From a virus, in the IMG/VR virus record IMGVR_UViG_3300032893_000005, positions 1 through 64,000 of that record: DNA of 64,000 nt, one strand, 5' to 3'. The translations under genes were made by a program, and so were the position numbers. The first letter of the stretch is position 1. The number at the start of each line of letters is the position of its first letter. The notes under the pieces were generated by a model. The model searched no databases, was not told where the DNA came from, and saw nothing but the letters and a program-made list of their open reading frames with translations. Below are positions 1 through 23,281 of the stretch, piece after piece.

Positions 1-3000
1 GTCTGAAACTGATCGTGGCCTCGCCTATCTTGAACGTGCTTACTGGCGTTGAACGAGCGAGTGCTGAAACCTGTGTCGTGCTCGCTGCCGCCTGGCCTAG
101 CAGAGTCATGGGCATGTTCTATGCTCTCTTGATGTTCAGAATGCAGCTTCTTCTCAACGTCTTCAGACAGCATGTCAGCCATGCGATGGCCTTCCTGCTG
201 CATCTTGGCCCAAGACTGCGTCAGGCGGTCTACCTTAGCCTTGTGAGCGTGCTTCAGGTACTGGTCGAAGGCCTTAGCTTGCTTGGCGCCAGAACTGTAC
301 GCTGCCTCGTGGATCTCAGGCAGACGGTTTAGAGCGTGAGCCATGCGCTGGCGCCCTTCCTGCGTGTTCACCACTTCACTTATGTGCCTTAACAGCTCAG
401 ACTTGTCATCGACCGGATACCCGTTGTCGACCATAGTGGCTCTGATAGCATGTAAGTCGTGTGGATGAACGAAGCTCAGGAGGTGGTCGACTGCGGGCTC
501 GCCGTGGTTGTCCATCAGGTAGTTGATGGGATACTCTAAGCCTTCGCTCTTGAAGATCTTAGAGTCAACGATTGCTCTAGCTGCTGCCGCATGGCGCTCC
601 CGCTCGACGTCGCTTAGCATACCGACATTCTTAGTGTCTTGAGCGCTAACACCAGCGAGCCGTGCGAGCTTAGGCTGCATCATGAACGCAGTTTTCTCGT
701 CCGACTGACGTTGCTCCGGCGTCATGGTAGAAGAAGCGGTAACTTGACCGAGCTGCTTCTGATACTCCCTCGGTGTCATACTGTCGGGTGTCATTAGTTG
801 ATGAGCGTACTCGTGCTCGGGCGAACCCCGCTCAGGCGTGAACAGAAGCTCGTTCTGCTTAGGGCCAACGCCGAAGCGATCTTGCCGGGACGCTCTCGCC
901 TTTATGCCTTGGCGTCCAAGCCAGCCGATGAAGCGCTTAGTGCGGTCATCGGAGCTTAAGTTCCGAGTCTTCTGACGCACGTTCTTCGAGCGCTTCTCTA
1001 GGACATCCTTCTCGGACGCCGCGAGCTGCTCATCTTCGTACTGAGTCAGGAAGTCGTGTAGTGGCTTCTGGGCAGGATGGAGGGCATCACGCTGAACCTT
1101 GAACCGGTTTTCCCAGATCAACTTCTTGGTAGCCGGAGACATGTTCGGCTGAGTCATGATGAGGTATCCAACGTCGCCGGGAGAATACTTTAGAGCTTTC
1201 TCGACGACCTTGTGCAGGAGTGGACCAGGAAGTTGGTTGACCGGCTCCTTACCATAACCGTGGTAGTGGTCTAAGCGTGACCAGCCGTTGTCCAGGGCAT
1301 TGACGTACTTCTCAACGACGTCAGCCGGTACGTCCGGGTGATTAACGATGGCCCTCTTGAGAGAAGACCTGTTGTTCCACGGAACCTGGTCAAACGAAGC
1401 GTGCAAGTTCCTGATCTCGTCAGGAGACATGCGATCGCGACGTATCAACTTCAGAGCCGAGTGGTCAAGCGGCGTCATGTTCATGTGATTGCGGCCTCTG
1501 GGAACTAACTGCATGACGTCAGACTCTTGAGCCGGTACAGGATTATGGCTAGAGACTAGGAACTCCTGCTCGTCGCCGTGATCGTCCGAAGAAGCTTCCT
1601 TAGGACCAACGTCGTACGAGTACCATACCTTACTGAGTGGAACCCATCGACGGTGTGCATGTTCTCCCAGAACTGGATGCTTCGTGTCAGAGTACGAAGC
1701 GAGAGCGTGGTCGGGTCCAGGAGTAGCGGTGCTGAGGCCACGAGTGAGGGCGACGCTGGGAACGCCGTTGACGTTCTTGATGTGCTGACCTGAGTATGTC
1801 TGAAGGAACTGATGTAACTTATTCTTGTGCTGGATGAGTTCGGCAGCCAATCCTTGAGCCTCGGCGACGAACTTCCTTAGAGCTGTCTTCCCGATGAGCC
1901 CGTTCTTCTTGCCCGCGTCACCCTTCTGATGATGAGTTAGGAAGTCAGAGTCGAGTACGTCCCTAGTTCCAGGATCAGCACCGTTGTAGGCATGTGCGTT
2001 TTCGATCCTGTGGATCATGTACTTGAGTGCCAACGCTCTTGGATGATGCGGTGAGTTCTTATATGACCGATAGAGGTCCTCAAGAGTAGCCTGGGGAGTT
2101 ATGGTCGTGTTTGGCTCGAGTTCGTCATTTTTCATCGGAAGATCTGGGTTATCGATCCGATGTTCTTCTTCGTCTGGATTATAGTCTGCCAATACCTTCT
2201 TAGGTTTGTAGTACGGGCCGACCTGACTCTCATCAATCACGTCTCCGTTAAGAGACTGCTGAAAGTTTGCGAACTCTTGTCCTGCGGGAGAGAAGTCTTT
2301 CCTAAGGTCTTCAAGACTGTCTTCACTCTTCTTGACCTTACTGAAACCGCGATCGTTGTAGCGAGCAAGCTCCTCGTCACCTCCACGATCGTGCTTCGCC
2401 TGATCCCAAGGATCGTCGAAGTGCATCTCTCGAACGGTAGGAACGTGCTTCCCTTCCTTCAACTCTTCGCCGTCTATGTGGTGACGGAAGTAGAGCGAGT
2501 TGCCGTGCTTGTCGCGTATGCCTGTGTAGAAGTCTTCGGGAGGCTCGGTGAACCACTGAGTGCCAGAGCCCTCGAGGTACTTGCCAGCATTTGGGCCATT
2601 GTAGAAGAAGAGCTTATGGTTGAACCCGTCAGACTCGATCGCACTCTCTTGGCCGTGCGCCTTGGCAATCTTGTGAAGAAGCTCAATGTTCTTAGGGCTT
2701 CTGACCATGATGGAGTTCTCAGGCGCACCGTAGTGTCCTTCTACCATCTGAGCATCTTCGCCTAGGTTCTTGAGTCGATCAACGACTTCTTCCGGCGTGC
2801 CCGAGGTCTGCTTAGGGTACATCGGGTTTTCGACAGTGAACAGGAAGTGATGTCCGAGAGTATGATCCTCAGACTTCTTCAGCAGAGAAGCCTTCTCGTG
2901 ATGCTCGGGCCGGATCTGCTCCTCAGCCTCGATCTCCTGAGGATGAAAGATGGCTACGACGTTACTCATCGTGCCGTGGCCAGAGTTCGTGAAGCCGTGG

Positions 3001-3329
3001 TAGCCGCGATCCTTGATCGCCTGCAGGTACTCGTCAGAAGTGACGAGGCCGGGGTTGGTGGTCTGGCCGGAGTTCTTCAGCTCTTGGTAGATGCTGTCTG
3101 GATCTTTGTAGACGTCGTAGATTCGCTGGCCAGGATGCAATGTTGCCCGATAGACGTGCGAGGCGCCGCTGGTTACGACGTTCTCTGGCGTAGTACCTTC
3201 AAGGTACCAATAACTACGAGTTACAGATGGAACTCCTTGTTTATTTTCTTCAGCAGGAGCGCCAGTCCCCTGCATCTCGGGGTTAATGGACTTAAGGTTT
3301 GACTTACGTGAATAATGAATTAGTTTCAT
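1..3329 (-). CDS. Giant polyvalent virion-type protein A, C-terminus beyond the window
   Basis: The frame is open from an ATG at 3329 to the left edge, at least 1,109 codons, with no stop. Residues 1-145 resemble the ADP-ribosyltransferase-like domain of phage polyvalent proteins: a SYWYLEG segment, then YRATLHPG, then a GYHGF...VVAIFHP ending. Residues 155-330 hold a GQESAI motif seen in some phage proteins of unknown function. Around residues 525-590 a TRGLS / LASYS / EQEFLV series fits the R, S-x-S and E-x-E signature of a second ADP-ribosyltransferase. Residues 620-760 look like helical leucine-rich-variant repeats (NHPDVPADVVEKY). An HEYAH triplet near residue 840 could be a zinc site but is weak. 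KKSE or LAASE tags lie at 151, 333 and 769, with a KSE at 927, between apparent domains. The ATG overlaps the preceding stop as ATGA. The enzymatic assignments are inference from motifs. Confidence 0.8.
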   Translation of the reverse strand, partial: MKLIHYSRKSNLKSINPEMQGTGAPAEENKQGVPSVTRSYWYLEGTTPENVVTSGASHVYRATLHPGQRIYDVYKDPDSIYQELKNSGQTTNPGLVTSDEYLQAIKDRGYHGFTNSGHGTMSNVVAIFHPQEIEAEEQIRPEHHEKASLLKKSEDHTLGHHFLFTVENPMYPKQTSGTPEEVVDRLKNLGEDAQMVEGHYGAPENSIMVRSPKNIELLHKIAKAHGQESAIESDGFNHKLFFYNGPNAGKYLEGSGTQWFTEPPEDFYTGIRDKHGNSLYFRHHIDGEELKEGKHVPTVREMHFDDPWDQAKHDRGGDEELARYNDRGFSKVKKSEDSLEDLRKDFSPAGQEFANFQQSLNGDVIDESQVGPYYKPKKVLADYNPDEEEHRIDNPDLPMKNDELEPNTTITPQATLEDLYRSYKNSPHHPRALALKYMIHRIENAHAYNGADPGTRDVLDSDFLTHHQKGDAGKKNGLIGKTALRKFVAEAQGLAAELIQHKNKLHQFLQTYSGQHIKNVNGVPSVALTRGLSTATPGPDHALASYSDTKHPVLGEHAHRRWVPLSKVWYSYDVGPKEASSDDHGDEQEFLVSSHNPVPAQESDVMQLVPRGRNHMNMTPLDHSALKLIRRDRMSPDEIRNLHASFDQVPWNNRSSLKRAIVNHPDVPADVVEKYVNALDNGWSRLDHYHGYGKEPVNQLPGPLLHKVVEKALKYSPGDVGYLIMTQPNMSPATKKLIWENRFKVQRDALHPAQKPLHDFLTQYEDEQLAASEKDVLEKRSKNVRQKTRNLSSDDRTKRFIGWLGRQGIKARASRQDRFGVGPKQNELLFTPERGSPEHEYAHQLMTPDSMTPREYQKQLGQVTASSTMTPEQRQSDEKTAFMMQPKLARLAGVSAQDTKNVGMLSDVERERHAAAARAIVDSKIFKSEGLEYPINYLMDNHGEPAVDHLLSFVHPHDLHAIRATMVDNGYPVDDKSELLRHISEVVNTQEGRQRMAHALNRLPEIHEAAYSSGAKQAKAFDQYLKHAHKAKVDRLTQSWAKMQQEGHRMADMLSEDVEKKLHSEHQESIEHAHDSARPGGSEHDTGFSTRSFNASKHVQDRRGHDQFQ

Positions 3330-3925
3330 GGCAATACAAACCTAACTCTTCCGTCTATCAAGACTTTCTTGCGCCTTCGTATAGAGGCAGCATGATTGCG
3401 AACGTGCCCTGCTGACTTTTTTCGTCCCAGTGCGGCCTTGGAAAGTTTCTCTTTATGTTCTTCGCTTAGAGGCCTGCCTTTCATCTTAGACGGTTTACCG
3501 GCCCTAGCCAATACACGCTTCTGAATATGTTCTGCGGACTGCTTTCTGCCACGCCAGTGGCTGGTGCCCGGTTTAAACTCAGTAGAAGGGCTAGCATGTT
3601 TGCCTTTATTAGCAATGGAGATTTTTTCCTTTACTACTTCAGACTTCTTTACTCCAGCAGATCCTTCTCCTCCCACAGACATATTAGCTTCGCAATACCC
3701 GAGGCTTTTATATAGGCGTATGAGTTCAATCTCCTTATCGAAGGCTTGTTTTTCCGTGAGATTTTTCGCAACAAACTCAAGCCTGCATTGAGTAAACTTC
3801 ATGATGTTTTTGAAGTAGCGGTTCCTGCCATCACTTTTCTTGTAAGCTCTCTTGCCGCATCCTTTACCTACGTAAAATGGGGTATTGGTATCTAATCTGA
3901 TATATCTATAAACGTAAAAGTTCAT
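3326..3925 (-). CDS. GIY-YIG homing endonuclease with NUMOD3-like repeats
   Basis: The 199-residue protein opens with a GIY-YIG fold signature (YVYRYI, then YVGKG about ten residues later) and has two NUMOD3-like DNA-binding segments in its second half (HWRGRKQSAEH and MKGRPLSEEHKEK). Freestanding enzymes of this kind cut target DNA and spread themselves by gene conversion. The gene is visibly more AT-rich than its neighbours. It overlaps both neighbours by four bases (ATGA), so it sits in the operon without an intergenic gap and is presumably translated by coupling. It lies between two polyvalent-protein genes and may have split or joined them. Confidence 0.9.
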   Translation of the reverse strand: MNFYVYRYIRLDTNTPFYVGKGCGKRAYKKSDGRNRYFKNIMKFTQCRLEFVAKNLTEKQAFDKEIELIRLYKSLGYCEANMSVGGEGSAGVKKSEVVKEKISIANKGKHASPSTEFKPGTSHWRGRKQSAEHIQKRVLARAGKPSKMKGRPLSEEHKEKLSKAALGRKKSAGHVRNHAASIRRRKKVLIDGRVRFVLP

Positions 3926-4335
3926 AAATTACCACCGCCTAAGTCTTCCTGAGGAGTGGTGTACTGGAACTTACTGTCGTGGTCGTCCTGAGCCCGCTGA
4001 AGCAACTGGAAGTACTCGGGCTTAAGGACCTCGTCCTTGTGAGTCCACTCTTCCGGCTTGAACTTCTGAGCATGCTCTTCCCTTGCTTCGTGAAGCGCCT
4101 GGTCAAACTCAGCCTGACCTTCCGGGTCATCGCTGTAGTGATCGCGAAACACTTGAGGAGAGAAGTCGGCCATGTGGTGCTCGAACGCCAAGTTATGGTC
4201 AACGTAGTTGCTACGATGTAGGCCGTAGTTGTGTGCCCTGAACTTCTTCCGGTGCTCGTTGAGTGCGTTCTCGTAGTCTGACTTCGCCTTGAACTGCTTG
4301 AGGATGCCGACGACGTAGTTAGGATCGTTCATCAT
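3922..4335 (-). CDS. Hypothetical protein between the two polyvalent proteins
   Basis: A 137-residue, charged, His- and Tyr-rich protein with no domain that I recognise. It overlaps the 3' end of the large upstream gene by 17 bases and the downstream endonuclease start by four. Its tail (PQEDLGGGNL) resembles the linker-like tail of the upstream protein (EEEVDLNKGGG) and an internal linker there (QQEDLG). It may therefore be one further module of an ancestral polyprotein now separated by a stop codon. Function unknown. Confidence 0.7.
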   Translation of the reverse strand: MMNDPNYVVGILKQFKAKSDYENALNEHRKKFRAHNYGLHRSNYVDHNLAFEHHMADFSPQVFRDHYSDDPEGQAEFDQALHEAREEHAQKFKPEEWTHKDEVLKPEYFQLLQRAQDDHDSKFQYTTPQEDLGGGNL

Positions 4336-7300
4336 CGCCTCCTCCCTTGTTCAAGTCTACCTCTTCTTCTTCGGATGCCGCGAGCTTGTCGTCGTCATCC
4401 TTGAAGCGTATCTTATCACCAAACATCTTCTTCTGTCGACGCTCTTCGATTTGACGCGCCCTGGCATGCTCTGGGTTATCGATCCAGCCTTGCAGAGGGT
4501 GAAAGATGATCTTCCTTGAGAGAACGTCCTCGATGCGCTGCCTGTTCTCGGGAGTGAGGAAGCGAGACTGACGAACTAGGTCAACCCACTTCTCCTTCTT
4601 CTTGCCGATGTTAACTCGAGTGCCAATTACTTGTGGAGGATCTTCAACTGACATGTACGGTGGAGCATCTTTACCTTCGGCTTCTGTGTAATACTTGTTG
4701 GCAGGAAGTCCAAGGTAGCGCCGGATCAACTGCTCAGCAGCCATAGGCTGAACTTCAGCGGAGTGCTTCTTCTGCTTCATGTACCCGTACTGACTCTGGA
4801 TGTCAGAGTACTGCTTGTCCATCAAAGACTGACCTGCCTTAAGGCCAACTCCCTTAGGAAGAAGCATCAAGTGAGCGATCTCATGGATCATGGCGTTCGG
4901 GTTCCACTGAGCCTCGAGCCTACCGCTTCTCCAGTCAGGCTTGTCTTCGCCTGGCTTGTCGTATCCAGGGCGGCGCTTGTTCTTCTTCTCGTCCCACTTA
5001 CCGCCGGACGGGTGAATCTTGAGCTGTAGGAAGTCTTGCGCGAACTTAGAGATATGCTTCATGTGCTTCTCGCGCATCTCAGATCCTGCGGGAGGTTGAT
5101 CCTTGGTTCCGAACACGTCGGCACGCTGCTCGCGGACGTTCTTCGACTTGTTCAACTCTTCGGACTTTCCGAACTGTTCCCTGCCGAGGTCTTCTTGCTG
5201 ATACTCCGAAGCTGCCAGTCGGCGAGGAGCCCGCCAGAGAGTATCGCTTTCCCTCCACATCTCGATCGGGTGAGTCTTAACCTTGATCGACGATGGATCA
5301 GCGATGAACCGATCGTAGACGTGCTTAGGAACGCTGATGTGTGGGATGTAGTTCGGAAACTTGTCAGGTCCGAGGTATTCCTCGAGGCCTTTGTGAACGT
5401 CCTGCATCCACTGCGGATGCTTCGTGAGCTTCAGTACGTGGTAGCGACCGTTCGGAGTATCGAAGATGTGAGGCTGAAGCTCGAACTTGTCTGGAACCAT
5501 GTGGGCCGTAGGTCCAAAGTAGTAGTCCAGGAAGTGCTTGCTTGGAGGATGCTCACCGGCGTGGCGTAGGGTTATGTGGTAGCGATGTCCGGTGACCGGA
5601 TCGCGAGTCTCGTCGTTGATCGTGACCGGCCACATCAGGTATGAGTGACCGTAATCCTTTTCGATGTGTGGAAAGTCCTTGTAGCGCCCAACTATGGGCT
5701 CGCCGACGTAGTCTGGCTCGCTCTTCTTTACCTTCATCTCTTCCCAGGTAGCGGGTTCATGAAAGAACTGATCCTCATAACCCTTCAGACTAGGATGTCC
5801 TAACTTACCCTTGGTAGGTACAAGTTCAGCCTGAACATGAGTATCTCCCCTCTTCTGAGCTGCGAGTACTCTATGATAGCCGTTAAGTAGATACATCTTT
5901 CCGTCTTTAACATGGACACCAACAGCTACCGGCTTGTCACTTACCTTAAAATCAGGAGTCCAATAAAAAGTCTTATGAGCATTTGCAACTCCTCCCGGAT
6001 CTTGATGGAGGTCTGAGATCTGGACCGTGGCAGGTTTTCGATAAACTTTCTTCTTGGCCTTATCTAGGTCATGCTCTGAGGCTGCGAGTTTCTCGGGCTT
6101 AGGCATGTAATCGGAGAAGTGACCGCGAAAGATAGAGTTGTGCTGCGGTTGGGAAGCGTCGGCAACGTAAACTTGATGGCGTTGACTTTCTTGATTGGGA
6201 TCTTTGGCGTATCGTCCAATCAACCCCTTCAGACCAGGGACGGATCTGAAGGAGAGCCACACTTTATGAGCTGCCGGTGAGACCCACGTATCAGACGACA
6301 GTCCTTGTTCCATTCCTTTCCCGTGAAGAAGTGCTGCTAGATAGGCTTGCTTACCGAGCCCTTTACCTCTCCACAACGGATGAACTTCAGACCACTGGAC
6401 TACGTTGGGTACCGTTCTTCCAGCGCCATGATACTCAGGGCCTTCGTTGGCTGTATGTACAACCGCTACGTTGGTATCGTATCCAGGATGAAAGATAGTG
6501 TGGACAAAGTTGTTTTCGTGCGGGAGCGCCTTCTTGTGCTGGTATTGACGGTATTGTAAACCATTAGGCAGCTTGACATTGTGAATGAGTTTATATTCTC
6601 TGCTATCATTGAAGATGTCATAGTCATGAGTTGCGTTCGAGGGATCTTGCTCATAGTCATACTGAAAGGGAGTCTTGCGAAGCGCCTCTGACTTCTTCAC
6701 GTCATCTTCGAGGGCGTTATGAGTGACGGTCTTGTAAGCAAGGTCCGGCAAGAGACCGGCCTTCTGATCTGCGTAGATTGTCTGGTGTGGGTTTGCGCGG
6801 TTATGCTCACCGTGCGGGCCGAAGTTGACCCAGGAGTTCTGACCGCGAGTTTCAGAAGTGAGGGCCTTCTGCGCCTCCGGCGAGTACATCTGCATGTGAT
6901 GTCGCCAAGCGTTCTCCTCACCGTTCGGACCAAAGCCGAAGCCTTCCTTCGCGTGACCGAAGTAGTCGTGCACGATCCTAAACATGTCGTTCGCCATCAT
7001 CGGCTTGCCGTGCTCGTCGAGGTGCTGAGTTGTCTGAAGCATTGGATGGGACTGGTCTACCTCGGCACCGGCTCCGTAACCGGTGCTGGTCGGGTAGTAC
7101 CACATGTGGTTGTTGTTTTCGATGTCGTGGAAGAGGTCTTTGGAGCCGTTCTTGTACGGGTTCTCCATGCCAGCAGGCATGGGCTCGATCTTTAAGCCGG
7201 TATTCTTGATGTGGGCGTACTGATCGCCGGTCTCGCGGACGAGCGCGTCGTACGCGGACTTCACTTCCGGGTGACTCGGGTCATGCTTCATCTGGTGGTA

Positions 7301-7510
7301 GGCGAGGGCGATCTTGGCAGCGTGATCACGATCAACCTTGACAGGCGCGATTGCATGGTTAAGCTGGATACCGCGTTGCGCGGCGTACTGGTCGGCGACC
7401 TGTCGGATGCGATCGTTCGGACGAGACTGCGCCTTCTCCAACTTCTCTTGGAGCTTCTGGGCCAGGACGACTTTGAAGAGGAGATCGACTTTAGACCGGA
7501 GATCAGGCAT
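4319..7510 (-). CDS. Giant polyvalent protein B: five domains separated by SE tags
   Basis: I place the start at the ATG at 7510, behind a CTGGAG ribosome site; an in-frame GTG lies at 7516. Residue numbers count from the GTG. Residues 1-270 form a domain rich in conserved aromatic and Gly residues (MFRIVHDYFGHAKEG, TRGQNSWVNFGPHGE), typical of large phage polyvalent proteins. Residues 280-470 contain a GNAT acetyltransferase-like motif (WRGKGLGKQAYLAAL). Residues 495-590 look ParB-like (LLNGYHRVLAAQKRGD). Residues 605-760 have two H-x-T/S motifs (YHITL at 646, PHISV at 725) of a 2H phosphoesterase. Residues 790-1040 carry a zincin site, HEIAH at 878, with a downstream EVQPMAAE. Tags at 274 (KKSE), 477 (LAASE), 597 (KKSE), 767 (LAASE) and 1045 (LAASE) fall exactly between domains. 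It is probably virion-packaged; that and the cleavage idea are inference. Confidence 0.88.
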   Translation of the reverse strand: MPDLRSKVDLLFKVVLAQKLQEKLEKAQSRPNDRIRQVADQYAAQRGIQLNHAIAPVKVDRDHAAKIALAYHQMKHDPSHPEVKSAYDALVRETGDQYAHIKNTGLKIEPMPAGMENPYKNGSKDLFHDIENNNHMWYYPTSTGYGAGAEVDQSHPMLQTTQHLDEHGKPMMANDMFRIVHDYFGHAKEGFGFGPNGEENAWRHHMQMYSPEAQKALTSETRGQNSWVNFGPHGEHNRANPHQTIYADQKAGLLPDLAYKTVTHNALEDDVKKSEALRKTPFQYDYEQDPSNATHDYDIFNDSREYKLIHNVKLPNGLQYRQYQHKKALPHENNFVHTIFHPGYDTNVAVVHTANEGPEYHGAGRTVPNVVQWSEVHPLWRGKGLGKQAYLAALLHGKGMEQGLSSDTWVSPAAHKVWLSFRSVPGLKGLIGRYAKDPNQESQRHQVYVADASQPQHNSIFRGHFSDYMPKPEKLAASEHDLDKAKKKVYRKPATVQISDLHQDPGGVANAHKTFYWTPDFKVSDKPVAVGVHVKDGKMYLLNGYHRVLAAQKRGDTHVQAELVPTKGKLGHPSLKGYEDQFFHEPATWEEMKVKKSEPDYVGEPIVGRYKDFPHIEKDYGHSYLMWPVTINDETRDPVTGHRYHITLRHAGEHPPSKHFLDYYFGPTAHMVPDKFELQPHIFDTPNGRYHVLKLTKHPQWMQDVHKGLEEYLGPDKFPNYIPHISVPKHVYDRFIADPSSIKVKTHPIEMWRESDTLWRAPRRLAASEYQQEDLGREQFGKSEELNKSKNVREQRADVFGTKDQPPAGSEMREKHMKHISKFAQDFLQLKIHPSGGKWDEKKNKRRPGYDKPGEDKPDWRSGRLEAQWNPNAMIHEIAHLMLLPKGVGLKAGQSLMDKQYSDIQSQYGYMKQKKHSAEVQPMAAEQLIRRYLGLPANKYYTEAEGKDAPPYMSVEDPPQVIGTRVNIGKKKEKWVDLVRQSRFLTPENRQRIEDVLSRKIIFHPLQGWIDNPEHARARQIEERRQKKMFGDKIRFKDDDDKLAASEEEEVDLNKGGGDDERS

Positions 7511-7521
7511 AGACACTCCAG

Positions 7522-7552: not shown

Positions 7553-8119
7553 TTAGGAGTTCCGAAGGGTTATCTTGTTGGATTTAGATCGATTTTCAGC
7601 AGCGGGAAGAACCTGTAAGTTCCACGGAACATGAAGACCTGATACGTTTTCACCCTGCAGTGGTATGATATGGTCAACGTCCATAGCCACACCAAACTCT
7701 TTGGTGAGCCTCACCGCAGCATCGTAGAAGATCTCGATCTGCTGAAAGTGAGTCTCGGTAAGCCAAGGAGGGGTACGTTGGAGCTTAGCAAGGTCGTGCT
7801 TGGCAGCCTTGGCGCGTGCCTTAGCTGGATTACGTCTTTGCCAACGAGTAGAATGCAGAGTATGGGCCTCGGGATGACTCTTTCTCCAAGCCTCTCTTTG
7901 CTTAGATCGCTTTTCTACATTTTTTTGATAAAGAGATGAAAAACACGCCTTACAAGTACGCTGCAAACCATCGCCATTACAGCGATTTTTATGGAAACTG
8001 TCGAGAGATTTTTTATTTTTGCAAATTGAACAGTGTTTAAGGTGTGCTGAGCCGGACGCTACTCCGGCGGCATGCGTACTAGAGTTCATGCTTTCGCAGA
8101 TTACCTCTGTCTTCGGCAT
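7553..8119 (-). CDS. HNH homing endonuclease
   Basis: A 188-residue protein. The N-terminal half has a zinc-finger-like Cys set (CSICKNKKSLDSFH, then CKAC), as in many phage HNH proteins. The C-terminus carries the HNH core: DVDHIIPLQG, then NLQVLPAAENRSKSN. This is a nicking or cutting nuclease typical of freestanding phage homing genes. A GGAGAAGA ribosome site precedes the ATG. The 3' half of the reading frame from about 7900 to 8040 is AT-rich compared with flanking genes, consistent with recent arrival. It lies between a neck-like virion gene and polyvalent protein B. Confidence 0.9.
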   Translation of the reverse strand: MPKTEVICESMNSSTHAAGVASGSAHLKHCSICKNKKSLDSFHKNRCNGDGLQRTCKACFSSLYQKNVEKRSKQREAWRKSHPEAHTLHSTRWQRRNPAKARAKAAKHDLAKLQRTPPWLTETHFQQIEIFYDAAVRLTKEFGVAMDVDHIIPLQGENVSGLHVPWNLQVLPAAENRSKSNKITLRNS

Positions 8120-14002: not shown

Positions 14003-15391
14003 TTACTGAGTAAGGTTGTCGACCAGCATGTTGAAGCGGGGAAGCTTCACGACAGCGGTACAGAACCGGAAGTATGCCTTCGGCATGGTCAAGTCTGTGC
14101 GAGCAAGCTCGTAGGACTTGAAGGGCGAGAGTTCGGAGATCTCCAAACCGCGCATGTCGAGGGCGAAGCCAGTCACGAAGCCGGGGACGCGGTTGTTGAG
14201 GTCGTTGAAGACCACAGCCGAGGAGCCCATAGCTTTTACGCGACCGATGTACTGGGTAGCGGTTCCGTTGGCCAGCGAGCGGTACACGTTGTAGTACAAC
14301 ACGCGGGGACCAGCGTTCGGAGTGATGGTCAGGTTGACCTGGTTACCGGTAGCGGCGATCGTAGCAGCGGGCGACAACGAGGCAGCGGGCGACTCACCGA
14401 CTTCGTTTACTGCAGTAGCGATGTACTGGTAAACTTCGCCAGCGTTGAAGCTGGTCGAGGCAGCGGCCTGAGCCGAAGCCAAGGAGGGAGCAGCGGGCGA
14501 ACCGACGAGGACGCGGGCCGGAGCGGTCTTACCAGACAAGAACCGGCTGGACTCGAGGCTGATGGCACCGCCAGCAACGAACTGTTCTTTGAGAGTCGCG
14601 CCAGTGGCGTGCTGGGGAGAACCAGCCAAGAAGATGCGTTCCTTGTTGAACGCGATCTTGTTGTAAGCCGAGAGAGTCAAGGGGTCCAGGTAGATCTTCT
14701 CAGGAGCACCGTGGTTCATCTGCGTACGAGCGTACACATCTTCGATCGTGGTCTGAGTGAGCTGACCGTTCTGGTTCAACTGAACCGACTGGTTGGCACC
14801 GTACTCAGAGAACATCAAGTCCTTAGCGCTGTCGAGGTAGTCGCCGATGCGGATCTGGGGGTCCAGACCTTGCATGCCGGGTTCTTGCTCGGCCATCGCC
14901 AACGGGTTACCGTCGAAGGCACCGCTGTCGGAGTAAGCGGACTTACCACGGAACAGGTGGAACTCGATGTCACCGGCGATCTTTAAGGCTGCGTCAGCGT
15001 CAGCGCGATCTTCCGAGTTCACACCGTCAAAGGTCTGAACCAGAGTCGACTGGAGAGTAACCCGACGGATGTGGACGTAGTAGGCCATCGGAACCACTGC
15101 ACGAATGTACGTGCTGGTATGTTCTTGACCGACTGCACCTTCGTTAACGGCTGATCCGCCGAAAACACCGTAGTCGAGTTGACGGTTGAACTGAACAAGC
15201 GTCCCTTTAGCGGGAGTGGATTTGAAAATCCGTTGCAGCTTGATCATCTGATCTGTGAACGTAGCCACGTTCATGACCGGACTGAGGTCCTCCATCTGGA
15301 GGGCTGAACCTTGGGTGAGAGACGACGGTTGAGCATTATACCCACCGGCTTCAATCGTCTTTCTTAGTTCTTCAACTTGTTGTTGCAACAC
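14003..15391 (-). CDS. Major capsid protein
   Basis: A 462-residue protein starting with GTG at 15391 behind AGGAGAAAAAC. It lies directly downstream of the scaffold-like and protease genes, the usual order for head genes. The N-terminal segment AGGYNAQPSSLTQGSALQ is followed by a helical LSPVMNVATFTDQMIKLQRIFK region, typical of myovirus capsid subunits, where the first residues are often trimmed by the prohead protease. Residues 300-400 look like an inserted fibronectin III or Ig-like domain (YQYIATAVNEVGESP, then VLYYNVYRS), which may be exposed on the capsid. A terminator follows. Confidence 0.85.
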   Translation of the reverse strand: MLQQQVEELRKTIEAGGYNAQPSSLTQGSALQMEDLSPVMNVATFTDQMIKLQRIFKSTPAKGTLVQFNRQLDYGVFGGSAVNEGAVGQEHTSTYIRAVVPMAYYVHIRRVTLQSTLVQTFDGVNSEDRADADAALKIAGDIEFHLFRGKSAYSDSGAFDGNPLAMAEQEPGMQGLDPQIRIGDYLDSAKDLMFSEYGANQSVQLNQNGQLTQTTIEDVYARTQMNHGAPEKIYLDPLTLSAYNKIAFNKERIFLAGSPQHATGATLKEQFVAGGAISLESSRFLSGKTAPARVLVGSPAAPSLASAQAAASTSFNAGEVYQYIATAVNEVGESPAASLSPAATIAATGNQVNLTITPNAGPRVLYYNVYRSLANGTATQYIGRVKAMGSSAVVFNDLNNRVPGFVTGFALDMRGLEISELSPFKSYELARTDLTMPKAYFRFCTAVVKLPRFNMLVDNLTQ

Positions 15392-15408: not shown

Positions 15409-16434
15409 TTACTGAATCACTTTTAACAGTTCGGGTGAACGCTTTCCTGTGGCATAGAAGTCCAGGATTGCGTCATGTTCTTTCTTCGAGAAGGTAGCGA
15501 GCTTCTTGTTGTCAGAAGTCACATCCTTCAGCTTCTTCGTGATGTCCTCTTTGGACATCTTCTCGACTTCGGCCTTCTTCAAGGCCTCTTCGCCGCGATC
15601 AACGAACTGTACGTCAGTGATGCTGTTGGCAGCACGAACCTTCGGACGGTTGATCATGTGCGAGACGATGGCGGTCATGTCACCGAGAGCCTTCTTCAGC
15701 TCTTCGTTTTCCTTCTCGGCCTTCGTCATGCGCTCTTCAGCTTTAGCGAGCTTCTCGCCAACTTCCTTCTCAGCCATAGCCATTGCCATAGCGGGAGCAG
15801 GAGCTTGGGCGGGAGCGCCGGGAGCAGCGGGCGAACCTTGAGGAGCAGCGGCAGAACCCGAGGCAGAAGCCATGCGGGCTTCCATCTCAGCCTTCACCTT
15901 CTGGCTCAGCTCTTGAAGCATGTCGTCGTCCAACTGTTGAAGTTGGCTTTCGATGCTTTCCAGCTCAGCACCGGCGGCGGGAGCCGACTCGGACGGAGCG
16001 GGAGCAGATGCAGAGGGGTCGGCAGCGGGGCTCGAAGCAGAAGCCGAAGCTTCGGGAGCTTGCGACTCGTATCCAGAACCTGAAGAAGACTCGTCGTCTT
16101 TCTTCATGCTGGCCGAGCTGGACGAGCTTGAGGACTCTTCACGCTTGGCAACACTGGAACTCGAGCTGGACGAAGAAGACTCTTCACCCTTCTCAACAGA
16201 CTTGCCCTTGGCGTTGCCGGGGCTGTCAGAGTTCAGTTCTTTGCCAGGACGCGATTCAGAGATCGGTTTGGTCTTGTTCGAGGGCTGCGCAGAGTCTGCG
16301 TTCAGCTCCTTGCCAGGACGCGAGAGATCTGCTTTGTTCAGATCTGTGCCTTCCGGCTGAGTTTTCAGAAGTTTCTGGACTTCAGTACTAACTTCAGCGA
16401 GAAGAGCTTTAATGTCGACGTTTTCAACTGACAT
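15409..16434 (-). CDS. Prohead scaffold-like protein with Ser-rich tracts
   Basis: A 341-residue acidic protein between the capsid and protease genes. It carries a repeated SRPGKELN(A/S)DS unit near residues 39 and 63, two long serine runs each following Glu-rich lysine spacers, a Pro/Ala/Ser-rich centre, and a C-terminal coiled coil (EKLAKAEERMTKAEKENEEL). Position, charge and coiled coil fit a scaffold or core protein that is digested during maturation. The low-complexity tracts are unusual for a scaffold. No sequence motif proves the role. Confidence 0.65.
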   Translation of the reverse strand: MSVENVDIKALLAEVSTEVQKLLKTQPEGTDLNKADLSRPGKELNADSAQPSNKTKPISESRPGKELNSDSPGNAKGKSVEKGEESSSSSSSSSVAKREESSSSSSSASMKKDDESSSGSGYESQAPEASASASSPAADPSASAPAPSESAPAAGAELESIESQLQQLDDDMLQELSQKVKAEMEARMASASGSAAAPQGSPAAPGAPAQAPAPAMAMAMAEKEVGEKLAKAEERMTKAEKENEELKKALGDMTAIVSHMINRPKVRAANSITDVQFVDRGEEALKKAEVEKMSKEDITKKLKDVTSDNKKLATFSKKEHDAILDFYATGKRSPELLKVIQ

Positions 16435-17063: not shown

Positions 17064-18014
17064 TTAGATGGCCTTAAATAAACGCTCGTAAATTACCGTA
17101 AACTCCTGCTCATACCGCTTGAGGCGGCGCTGACGGAGAACCTTCATGATGTTTCCGATCTGCTGTTCCTTCAGGCCGGGTACGGCTGCGGAGATCAGGT
17201 CGCGGCTTATCGGCTTCTCACCTAAAGCGGACTCGAGCTTGTCGAGGTGCGACTTGGACGTCTGCAGGGCCGAGCCCTGAGAGAGTGCAGAGGGAGCGGC
17301 GTTCATACCACCGGCGGCGATCGTCTTCTTGAGTTTACGCAAAGCGTTCGTCAAGCCGAAGTCGTCCAGTACGAAGAACTGACGCTCGTTGTTGAAGCTA
17401 GTTAGGAAAACACTACCGTCCTGGGACGCCTTGGTAACTACCTCGGGCGTGGTGTCTCGCGACGCTGTGTCTTTGATAACCGCTTGAATAACCGCTGCTT
17501 TATTGCATGGCTTGGCCGTAGCCGCCACGCGCCGGATGATGGTTTCCTTAAGGTTACCACCTTCCCGCTTAAGGACGTTACCCTCGACCGAGAACCCGAT
17601 CATGTGATCGAAGTTGCCGTCGCGGGCCTGTCGGATGATCGCTGAAGCCGCCTGAGCATTCGGATGATCCGGCGAGTCAAAGAACTCACAGTATCCGAAG
17701 ATCAGGGGAACCTTCAGGTCGTTCCACGCCTTCTTCTCGAGGTCGTTGTCACAGTCTTCTTCGCCGAAGATCTTCTTGGCGTCCATGACTCGACCGACTA
17801 TCGTATTGAAACCTCTCTCTTTTTCAGCATTGGTGCTCTCAAGATCATCCTTGCCAAGGTCGTCGGGGTTGACGTGCTCGGTGTTGATCGGCGCGTTGCC
17901 GTTCTTGAGCGAACTTATGTCGGCGCCCTTGACGTCGAGCGTCTCGCCGGAGGTATCCGGGCACTCGGCGGTAAGTACGGCAGCAACGACTATGTTCTTC
18001 CTAAGAGCTTCCAT
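17064..18014 (-). CDS. Prohead protease
   Basis: A 316-residue protein. Residues 8-60 show the start typical of phage prohead proteases (VVAAVLTAECPDTSGE, then APINTEHV with the likely catalytic His). The catalytic Ser lies in HMIGFSVEGNVLKREGG near residue 142. The C-terminal region contains AGGMNAAPSALSQGSALQ, nearly the same as a stretch at the N-terminus of the major capsid protein, followed by a basic helical tail. Proteases of this class cut scaffold and capsid N-termini inside the prohead and then digest themselves. The shared motif may be a docking or cleavage site. Confidence 0.85.
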   Translation of the reverse strand: MEALRKNIVVAAVLTAECPDTSGETLDVKGADISSLKNGNAPINTEHVNPDDLGKDDLESTNAEKERGFNTIVGRVMDAKKIFGEEDCDNDLEKKAWNDLKVPLIFGYCEFFDSPDHPNAQAASAIIRQARDGNFDHMIGFSVEGNVLKREGGNLKETIIRRVAATAKPCNKAAVIQAVIKDTASRDTTPEVVTKASQDGSVFLTSFNNERQFFVLDDFGLTNALRKLKKTIAAGGMNAAPSALSQGSALQTSKSHLDKLESALGEKPISRDLISAAVPGLKEQQIGNIMKVLRQRRLKRYEQEFTVIYERLFKAI

Positions 18015-20492: not shown

Positions 20493-21213
20493 CGACGTCC
20501 CGACAGTTTGGGTGAGTAAGCGTAACAGATGGGTTACGACTGCCAGATTTCTTGCCTGGATCAGCTACAAGCTCAGACATGTAGTACAGGCGCGGTGTAA
20601 CGCGGTCTTCCATAGTCCAAAGTCGCCAGCAGTCCGTGCATCTCTTGTCATCTAAGACACCAATCTTGAATACGACGGGGTCAGAGATCCCGATTCTTTG
20701 CGCGACTGCTAAGATACCGTCGGCTGAGCCTATGTTCTGCGAGTTCGACAGCTCAACTTGAGTGATGCCGTCGACTGCCTTCACGATCTTCTTACGCTGG
20801 GACTCGAGTTCGTCGCGTACGCCGTCAAGTATCTTCTGACCGTCCTCAGTCTTGAGCCAGCTTGCCGGATCTTGCTTGTCTATCTTGCTCTTCCGGTTAG
20901 CTTCGTCGAGCGCGTCAGACACGGTTCGTACGGTATCAGCCTGAACCTTTGCCTTCATCGAGTCGAGGTACTGGCTGGTAACTGCTTCAAGCTTCTTGAT
21001 GCTGGTCTGGTCAGGGAACTGAGTGCCAGCCCCATGGATGGAGTTGGCGTGAAGGTACGCGTGGAGGATAGTGGCCTTCGGATCGTAGTCGCGCATCTGG
21101 AAGATCATGCTGCGAGCGACTGACTGGGGTCCGACGAGGCGGATCTTCGCGTTGTTGAAGTACATGTCGACGATGCTGATGATGATCTTACGTAGTGCTT
21201 CAGTCATGGTCAT
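20392..21213 (-). CDS. Mu F-like minor head protein
   Basis: A 273-residue protein next to the portal. Its C-terminal half has the signature of the Mu gpF / SPP1 gp7 family: LDDKRCTDCWRLW, then PRLYYMSEL, then LTHPNCRDVV with a following hydrophobic PGF. Such proteins bind the portal and are packaged in the head, some being ejected with the DNA. The N-terminal part is helical. The start overlaps the portal gene by 14 bases, and the end overlaps a plus-strand gene by 101. Confidence 0.85.
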   Translation of the reverse strand: MTMTEALRKIIISIVDMYFNNAKIRLVGPQSVARSMIFQMRDYDPKATILHAYLHANSIHGAGTQFPDQTSIKKLEAVTSQYLDSMKAKVQADTVRTVSDALDEANRKSKIDKQDPASWLKTEDGQKILDGVRDELESQRKKIVKAVDGITQVELSNSQNIGSADGILAVAQRIGISDPVVFKIGVLDDKRCTDCWRLWTMEDRVTPRLYYMSELVADPGKKSGSRNPSVTLTHPNCRDVVTVLMPGFGFDSRGKVIYVGKGHDEIAKQRGPQ

Positions 21214-23281
21214 GGCCGTCGTGAGGTTTCTTGCCCTCTACCGCGCCCATGATCTCATCGAACATCTTCTTTGAGTCGCGCTCGAAGGCTTCTGTCTGCT
21301 TCTTGCGAATCGCCTTGTGTAGCTTCAGCATCTCTTTGCGGTTGATCGGAAGATCCCTCTCTGCCTTAGTGAGAGCTTCGCCGATCTGACCCATCGCTGA
21401 GTCTAGGTCGGACTGTTCTGGCTGCTGTTCTTGGTCGGGCTGAGCCTTCTGGCCGCGCTGCTGACCCTCGTGTGGAGGAACGCTGGAGTCACCCTGTTCT
21501 GGGTTACCTTGACCATCCCCACCCTGTTCTGGGTTACCCCCACCTTGCTGAGCCTGAAGTGCCATCTGCTGCTGTTGCATCTGCATCTGCTGTTGCTGCA
21601 TCTGAAGGTTCATGAACGTGAACCATGCCTGGTTGTTTATGTAGAACGCAAGCTCAGGATGCTGTGTCGGATCGCCGTAGCCCTTGCACTTGTCTGGATC
21701 AAAGGCTTCCTTGATCTCGCCCATCGTGTAGTACTTCTCGACGTTCGCCATGTACGCGGCGTTCAGTGGGAAGTCTCCACCGATCGGGACGTGCTTCTTC
21801 TCGACGCGGTCCATGATGTCGTTCATGGTCAGGTAGATCGCTGAGTCCTGCTGGAGGCGAGTTGCTTCCTTCTCAGGACTGTCGGCGTCTAAGCCTTCGA
21901 GCGAGATGCGTACGAGCTTTGACCACTCGGGGTTGATGAGCGGGAGCAAGCGCTCGTTCAAGAACGCTTCGATGCTCTTTAAGATCGGGCGAAGACCGTT
22001 GTCGCGGGCTGCGACCATCTTCCACTCGTTGTTTGACTCGGCTAGCGACTGAGAGTTCGTACCCTTCGAGAGGTACGAGAGGGCTGCGACCTCGTCCGGC
22101 GACATCTGGTATGCCGCAAGGATCATGCGCTTGTTCAAGTCGGCTAGGTACTGGAACTCCATGTCCCGGCCAGCAGCGTCGAGTGGCTGGATCGTGATCT
22201 TGTCGTTCTGGCCTACGCCGAACACCGGCATGCGCCAGGCGGCGTTGGCCGAGTTGATGTGGGCAGTCATCTGAGCGCGGATCGCCTGGATGTCGTCTGC
22301 GTCAAGGTTCTCCGACTGGAACACCATCACGTTACGTGCGGCGCGTCCGTTAAGGAAGAACATCTTGTTGTGAGTGGTCAGGTTGATGTGTGTGACGACC
22401 GAGTTGATCAAGCGCTCGATCGGACTAACCGGGTAGCCAGCGCGATCGATGTCGGTCGACGGAGTAAGCGACCAGACAAGCATCTGCTTGTCGGTGAAGA
22501 CCTGGTATGGGCGATCATCGATGACCTGAACCCAGGTATAGTCGCCGTTCGTGAACCTGTCTACGTCGATCTTCTTGTCGGAACCCTGGTTAAGGCGGTC
22601 AAGGATCTTCTTGGCCTGCTCGCGGATAGACTCAAGGTGCTTCTCGTTCGACTTCATGTCGTTCGCGAAGTAGATCGTACCAGCATCAGACGCACGCCAA
22701 CTGTGGAACTTTCCGATCTCGTTTACTCGAACCTCAGAAGCGAACCAGCCGTAGAGGAGGACGTCCTCTGTGATCATGTGCAGCCACTGAGAGAACGTGC
22801 ACTTATCTTTGTCCTTGATGCCGTCGTTGCTACCGCAGTTCAGCAAGATCTCGCGGAGTTTAGGAACGATCTCCTTCTTGATCTTGTCGATCTGCTCTTC
22901 TTCCATCTCCTCGTAGAGGTGTGGCTGAGGGTTTATGACGAAGCCGATGTCGAAGCGGTTCGGGCGCGGATCGCCGTATAGGGAGATCTGCTTGCCACGA
23001 AGGGGTAAGATGATGCCGCCGACCAACTCCTCAGTGTCGCGAGTGCGCTTGAGGATGACCGGAGGGATTGCGAAGATGCGACGCTTGTAGACGGCAGCGT
23101 ACTGCTCGGCCTTCTGCGGATCTTCCGTGAACGACAGCTTGATGGCCTCAAGGTCTTGGGCCTTCTTCAGCGTACCTAGGATCTGACTGATCGGGTCCTG
23201 GGAGTTGTTTCCAGGGTCCATGACGTCAGTCATGATCTTTCGGAACTTTGGATCTGTCTGTGTTGGCAGTTTGTCAGCCAT
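21200..23281 (-). CDS. Portal protein
   Basis: A 693-residue protein of the length and placement of a large myovirus portal, downstream of the terminase and directly before the minor head protein. Notable segments are a WLHMITEDVLLYGWFASEV helix, NSVVTHINLTTHNKMFFLNG around residues 310-330, and MILAAYQMSPDEVAALSYLSKG near 400, typical of the portal wing and stem. The C-terminus has long Gln/Met and Gly/Gln tracts and an acidic His-rich tail. The portal forms the dodecameric ring through which DNA enters and leaves the capsid. Confidence 0.85.
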   Translation of the reverse strand: MADKLPTQTDPKFRKIMTDVMDPGNNSQDPISQILGTLKKAQDLEAIKLSFTEDPQKAEQYAAVYKRRIFAIPPVILKRTRDTEELVGGIILPLRGKQISLYGDPRPNRFDIGFVINPQPHLYEEMEEEQIDKIKKEIVPKLREILLNCGSNDGIKDKDKCTFSQWLHMITEDVLLYGWFASEVRVNEIGKFHSWRASDAGTIYFANDMKSNEKHLESIREQAKKILDRLNQGSDKKIDVDRFTNGDYTWVQVIDDRPYQVFTDKQMLVWSLTPSTDIDRAGYPVSPIERLINSVVTHINLTTHNKMFFLNGRAARNVMVFQSENLDADDIQAIRAQMTAHINSANAAWRMPVFGVGQNDKITIQPLDAAGRDMEFQYLADLNKRMILAAYQMSPDEVAALSYLSKGTNSQSLAESNNEWKMVAARDNGLRPILKSIEAFLNERLLPLINPEWSKLVRISLEGLDADSPEKEATRLQQDSAIYLTMNDIMDRVEKKHVPIGGDFPLNAAYMANVEKYYTMGEIKEAFDPDKCKGYGDPTQHPELAFYINNQAWFTFMNLQMQQQQMQMQQQQMALQAQQGGGNPEQGGDGQGNPEQGDSSVPPHEGQQRGQKAQPDQEQQPEQSDLDSAMGQIGEALTKAERDLPINRKEMLKLHKAIRKKQTEAFERDSKKMFDEIMGAVEGKKPHDGHDHD

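Follow-up and report, generated by a model that had tools for sequence, protein, structure and literature searches.

Recurrent Phi-x-K-S-E and LAASE tags in two multidomain phage proteins suggest polyvalent head cargo with cleavable domain joints

Polyvalent proteins of phages and conjugative elements carry 2-15 unrelated domains per chain, and both their entry into the host with the DNA and their processing have been predicted (Iyer et al. 2017, PMC5512222). In phage T4, the serine protease gp21 cuts the scaffold to many pieces and removes a 10-residue capsid targeting sequence from internal proteins (PMC9026906). The proteases of T4, phiKZ and SPN3US cut after Glu, at L/I-X-E, S/A-X-E and A-X-E, respectively (PMC9026906, PMC10052503). 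The Dar proteins of phage P1 are large head-packaged anti-restriction proteins, of which DarB has a 30-residue N-terminal packaging signal and DarA is believed to be processed (PMC9024508). Polyvalent proteins and head proteolysis at short motifs are both already known. Here we describe two multidomain proteins, termed P1 and P2 (the former not to be confused with phage P1), in a window of 64,000 nucleotides that covers positions 1 to 64,000 of the 154-kb IMG/VR virus record IMGVR_UViG_3300032893_000005. Their domains are separated by short peptide tags of the forms Phi-x-K-S-E and LAASE, where Phi is L, M, I, V or F in all motif forms.

Like polyvalent proteins, the proposed cargo combines several unrelated domains per chain, and these resemble, in P1 and P2 largely by eye, the GNAT, ART, zincin and DNA-binding types of that class. 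However, the predicted cutters of polyvalent proteins are embedded zincins or C-terminal assemblin-like peptidases, with no mapped sites seen (PMC5512222), whereas the short joint tag found here also marks the scaffold and the portal, pointing to a separate head protease. The locus resembles the T4 gp21 system in having a short motif, the scaffold as a probable substrate, N-terminal leaders and a putative serine protease. It differs from T4 in the motif, which there is L/I-X-E, and in that the T4 internal proteins and Alt are cut at their ends and not between enzyme units (PMC9026906). The phiKZ and SPN3US proteases offer a further likeness, as they cut the portal, ejected proteins and themselves at a short motif (PMC9026906, PMC10052503). 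Unlike here, the mapped SPN3US cuts take propeptides off the N-terminus (off the C-terminus in the case of the protease), and in these systems the capsid protein is cut too, whereas the capsid protein here is without Phi-x-K-S-E. The Dar proteins of phage P1 differ in that no repeated joint tag was seen and the DarA cut site was not determined (PMC9024508). Within the open-access literature, no known system was found in which one tag both separates packaged enzyme units and links domains that are shuffled among the phages of a group.

Tags and domains of P1 and P2

The initial annotation had given the P1 open reading frame (ORF) as 4319-7510. The stop end was retained and the start was moved, as 7510 is an in-frame ATG two codons past a GTG at 7516, from which P1 residues are counted here. 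The features of P1 are as follows.

4319-7516, minus strand: P1, tagged multidomain head-cargo protein (proposed), 1065 residues, GTG start
7427-7516, minus strand: N-terminal leader helix, residues 1-30, ending LEKAQ; helix 3-29 in the AlphaFold2 (AF2) model
6719-7423, minus strand: domain 1, conserved phage domain, residues 32-266, by homology
6686-6700, minus strand: tag 1, VKKSE, residues 273-277
6107-6619, minus strand: GNAT-like domain, about residues 300-470, approximate limits; motif WRGKGLGKQAY by eye
6074-6088, minus strand: tag 2, LAASE, residues 477-481
5747-6049, minus strand: ParB-like domain, about residues 490-590, approximate limits; motif NGYHRVLAAQKRG by eye
5717-5731, minus strand: tag 3, VKKSE, residues 596-600
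5246-5659, minus strand: 2H phosphoesterase-like domain, about residues 620-757; from homologues, and from HIT and HIS motifs as read by eye
5204-5218, minus strand: tag 4, LAASE, residues 767-771
5159-5173, minus strand: extra tag, FGKSE, residues 782-786, in the same linker as tag 4
4397-5149, minus strand: zincin-like domain, about residues 790-1040; HEIAH at 4871-4885, by HExxH motif only
4370-4384, minus strand: tag 5, LAASE, residues 1045-1049; the C-terminus lies 16 residues further on

All five of the KKSE or LAASE tags listed by the initial annotation were confirmed, at residues 273, 477, 596, 767 and 1045, and a sixth site (FGKSE, residue 782) was absent from that list. Six Phi-x-[KA]-S-E sites were seen in P1 compared to 0.13 expected, and 20,000 shuffles of the protein gave a maximum of three per shuffle. 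It was noted that codons vary among the tag copies (CTCGCAGCCTCAGAG, CTGGCAGCTTCGGAG and CTCGCGGCATCCGAA), with TCA, AGC or TCT for the KKSE serine, which covers both the TCN and AGY families. These differences rule out the tags as a DNA repeat and indicate that they are kept as protein, with selection on the peptide. Among ORFs of at least 80 residues in the whole record, LAASE has four copies, all in P1 and P2.

The five-domain reading of P1 was upheld by homology for domain 1 and, through homologues and a fold match, for the 2H domain, which places unrelated domains on one chain. Domain 1 is 47% identical to cyanophage proteins and 53-59% identical in relatives, and its cyanophage and mycobacteriophage matches in tblastn stop at residues 234-270, just short of tag 1. 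Homologues of the 2H domain occur in the viral loci L025, L057, L026 and L021, and the L021 homologue matched 2H phosphodiesterases in Foldseek, including the anti-CBASS nuclease Acb1 (probability 0.96-0.98, with E only 0.006-0.04). The remaining assignments come from motifs. The GNAT-like region had very weak phmmer matches, on the Pfam GNAT regions of L045 and Myxococcus phage Mx1, the ParB-like region had a weak match to L031 (E 0.036), and the zincin-like region is marked by HEIAH alone. These would be domain types of the polyvalent class, read by eye in P1, for which a Pfam search returned no matches; in Mx1 the counterpart protein has GNAT, ART-PolyVal and NUDIX by Pfam. Searches of viral contigs with whole P1, its GNAT-ParB part and its zincin part gave no P1 relatives, and no meaningful match came from a fold search with the P1 model.

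P2, which lies near P1, carries the same tags and was not part of the initial annotation.

3-3329, minus strand: P2, second tagged multidomain protein, cut off by the contig start
2868-2882, minus strand: P2 tag LKKSE
2322-2336, minus strand: P2 tag VKKSE
1011-1025, minus strand: P2 tag LAASE
543-557, minus strand: P2 tag IFKSE

The first domain of P2 is homologous to parts of L006, L021 and L034 and appears ART-like by eye only. Its second domain is S-adenosylmethionine (S-AdoMet) lyase/DUF3293-like through homologues, below the Pfam cut-off. P2 also has a zincin-like region, with HEYAH, and a comparison of this region with that of P1 yielded no alignment. 

The neighbours of P1 on the minus strand are a NUMOD3-bearing ORF at 3326-3925 and an ORF at 7553-8119 that is HNH homing endonuclease-like by eye. 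A VKKSE in the former was taken as chance in homing-endonuclease-like sequence. Elsewhere in the record (L005), a protein at 151062-152354 on the minus strand carries LPKSE and VNKAE, along with a short domain common to cargo proteins of L026, L029 and L052.

The motif in head proteins and domain joints of related phages

The prohead protease gene claimed by the initial annotation was borne out, and the head genes of this phage were assigned as follows.

17064-18014, minus strand: prohead protease, proposed cutter; phrog_1028 (E 9e-6), invariant His and Ser-x-Glu-Gly in the alignment
15409-16434, minus strand: scaffold, from its place directly before the capsid gene and its composition; LAKAE 15736-15750, MTKAE 15715-15729, LKKAE 15568-15582
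14003-15391, minus strand: major capsid protein, SPO1-like; phrog_752 (E 3e-41), no tag
21200-23281, minus strand: portal, with C-terminal LTKAE at 21359-21373

The relatives comprise about 46 IMG/VR loci with capsid proteins 44-70% identical and Mx1, whose capsid protein is 51% identical; no capsid relative was found in the bacterial genomes searched. Over-represented peptides of the head region were counted without looking for the tag, using 542 non-redundant plus-strand proteins. The most enriched tripeptide in the head loci was KSE, with 227 occurrences compared to 62.5 in shuffled sequence, and the next z-score was half as large. Phi stands two residues ahead of K at 188 of the 227 sites.

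The search for tags in related phages that the initial annotation had suggested showed Phi-x-K-S-E to be enriched in head-locus proteins across the relatives. The motif was concentrated in scaffolds (132 vs 3.0 expected), portals (10 vs 0.45), proteases beyond residue 40 (23 vs 2.65) and other large head-locus proteins (44 vs 6.9), and was not encountered in the capsid, terminase, sheath and completion proteins used as controls (0 vs 2.7 expected). The limit at residue 40 leaves out an IAASE with which the proteases of several relatives begin; this peptide was rejected as a site because it belongs to the fold, as a conserved strand. Within the scaffolds, scrambled letter orders fell below expectation and KSE without Phi was not enriched. 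The portal site occupies the same C-terminal place in this phage (LTKAE), L006, L009, L016, L017, L055 and Mx1, and several relatives' proteases have a site just past the catalytic domain. All ten aligned proteases share an invariant His and Ser-x-Glu-Gly. The motif is common to scaffold, portal and protease and absent from the controls, which is the pattern expected of prohead-protease substrates.

The P1 and P2 domains were found to recur in other orders among the relatives, with tags at the joints. In L021 the 2H domain comes ahead of domain 1, in L017 and L038 domain 1 follows an S-AdoMet lyase, and in L029, L026 and L052 a 2H domain, a short domain and a lysozyme stand in that order. Between recognised domains, 20 of 24 joints (partly related by descent) carry Phi-x-[KRA]-[SATG]-E compared to 1.6 expected, and 17 carry the stricter Phi-x-K-[SA]-E compared to 0.5; the test was devised after tags had been seen at several joints, and the numbers are descriptive. 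A cruder first test on all BLAST alignment ends gave 158 vs 126 expected, and 102 vs 89 for the strict motif, which is within chance. This test is weak because most alignment ends are not domain joints, and the joint test was used instead.

The sites also avoid folded domains. Among 18 proteins with Pfam domains, 0 of 39 sites fell inside such a domain, compared to 6.6 expected. The structural check of tags against folds raised by the initial annotation gave a positive result for the L021 relative. Two of its domains could be modelled by AF2, and its two sites (17-21 and 185-189) fall in linkers of low confidence, residues 1-22 and 171-215. Several cargo proteins of relatives begin with a leader of 16-30 residues ending in Phi-x-K-[SA]-E and followed by a domain, such as MSLLKHLRKALTEEYSLKKAE; the P1 leader ends in LEKAQ, without Glu.

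Other observations concern the protease genes and their surroundings. The Mx1 protease ORF (L011:13002-16721) encodes 1239 residues, with cargo-like domains fused behind the protease, the proposed cargo proteins of Mx1 include ones of 1479 and 619 residues, and ORFs of 1.9-2.2 thousand residues at the same place in L040 (1144-7599), L041 (1831-8034) and L047 (2183-7969) look alike. The L058 protease protein (312-4595) has a Pfam intein-splicing domain, and the protein after the portal in L006 (4482-6317) has an intein-like insertion, as read by eye. Past its catalytic part, the protease protein of this phage contains a stretch, KKTIAAGGMNAAPSALSQGSALQ, homologous to the capsid-protein N-terminus, RKTIEAGGYNAQPSSLTQGSALQ. 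This stretch is kept in relatives and in a Herelleviridae phage, and the profile weakly matches residues 18-72 of the SPO1 capsid protein 9vel.

Proposed processing of the cargo and competing explanations

We propose, with a probability of about 0.76, that P1 and P2 are polyvalent head cargo, cut at their linker tags by the prohead protease and packed and delivered as separate enzymes. Both proteins would be made as single chains and would enter the prohead with the scaffold. The protease encoded at 17064-18014 would cut the scaffold, itself, the portal tail and the cargo linkers, acting at Phi-x-K-S-E and probably also at LAASE between domains. The units so freed (GNAT, ParB-like, 2H phosphoesterase, zincin, S-AdoMet lyase and ART-like) would be packaged along with the DNA and reach the host on infection, as gene position, domain types and precedent suggest. 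The head-processed polyprotein of the initial annotation is kept here in the form of polyprotein-like head cargo with cleavable joints, for which comparison between phages argues: the motif occurs in protease substrates and at joints, and it avoids Pfam domains. A broader reading, which we consider fairly probable, is that Phi-x-K-S-E is a standard modular cleavable connector. Enzymes for counter-defence and takeover (2H phosphodiesterase, S-AdoMet lyase, lysozyme, ART, NUDIX, GNAT and kinase), shuffled along precursor chains, would be packaged in the head, where the protease would set them apart. This would be a phage counterpart of the polyproteins of RNA viruses, with protease specificity, scaffold and cargo evolving together.

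Several points weigh against this proposal. No proteomics was found for this phage or Mx1 in the open-access literature. The scaffold of this phage has K-A-E versions only. Four of the 24 joints are without a tag, so the tag at every domain boundary described by the initial annotation holds for P1 and not as a general rule, and the joints' partly shared descent means that not all are independent. The AF2 model of P1 is usable only for the leader helix (3-29) and domain 1, its quality being too low beyond them for tags 2-5 to be placed. Phi-x-A-S-E, the form to which LAASE belongs, was not enriched in the relatives' scaffolds (1 vs 3.9 expected).

The position of the cut is a further point of this kind, as the cut bond could lie between K and S, between S and E, or after E. 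The initial annotation had likened the tags to the T4-type L/I-x-E pattern with a cut after Glu. This likeness fails, as the third residue from the tag end is K or A, and Phi is the fifth, four before Glu. In a distant SPO1-like group (L060-L078, capsid 25-31% identical), the scaffolds before the capsid gene are enriched in KSL, KSF, AKS and KSQ, with Phi again two before K, giving Phi-x-K-S-L/F/Q. Because other letters follow Phi-x-K-S in these scaffolds, a cut after Glu is not established. By sequence comparison, the conserved core is Phi-x-K-S and the next letter shifts with the group, which suggests that protease specificity drifts with lineage. It was also noted that the capsid N-terminus of the distant group has a matching LNKAL/LRKAL. 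KKSE is well supported as a tag, and support for LAASE comes mainly from within this phage, where the four copies at P1 and P2 joints argue from their placement that it is used. Phi-x-A-S-E is slightly enriched in the relatives' other large head proteins (12 vs 7.4), and LAASE is perhaps handled with different efficiency or by another enzyme.

A rival explanation is that the embedded zincins of P1 and P2 cut their own chains, with the tags (or LAASE, if not the others) as their target sites. Self-cutting of this kind was proposed for polyvalent proteins (Iyer et al. 2017, PMC5512222), and in both P1 and P2 an HExxH lies downstream of a LAASE tag, the form limited to these two proteins in the record. 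We regard it as unlikely overall, although it may hold for LAASE, since KSE is plentiful in scaffold, portal and cargo proteins even where a phage has no zincin of this type in its head cargo. The co-occurrence of tags with an embedded HExxH, true in P1 and P2, fails elsewhere, for example in Mx1, where none of the HExxH matches makes a plausible zincin of the cargo; the lack of alignment between the P1 and P2 zincin regions also speaks against it.

The presence of Phi-x-K-S-E in scaffold, portal and cargo and its absence from non-head proteins could also be accounted for by an uncut docking or packaging motif that binds the capsid, scaffold or protease, with more copies raising the packaging of large cargo. 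This explanation leaves the copies at joints, the position at leader ends rather than inside leaders, and the sites past the protease catalytic domain unexplained, and appears quite improbable. Least credible, and very improbable, is that the tags are functionless flexible linkers carried along with shuffled domains. The domains are visibly shuffled between proteins, which speaks for it, but scaffolds and portals show the motif with equal strength, and the use of different codons from both serine families indicates that the peptide itself is conserved.

Should the tags be cut as the proposed head processing predicts, the motif would tell from sequence which proteins are in the head and where their functional units start and end, across a large and mostly uncultured phage group. 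Cutting would also explain how unrelated enzymes are packed in a fixed ratio and yet act separately. It would further offer a way to find new enzymes, as many of the units look like counter-defence enzymes or have no assigned function. Mx1 can be cultivated on M. xanthus, which opens the idea to direct testing.

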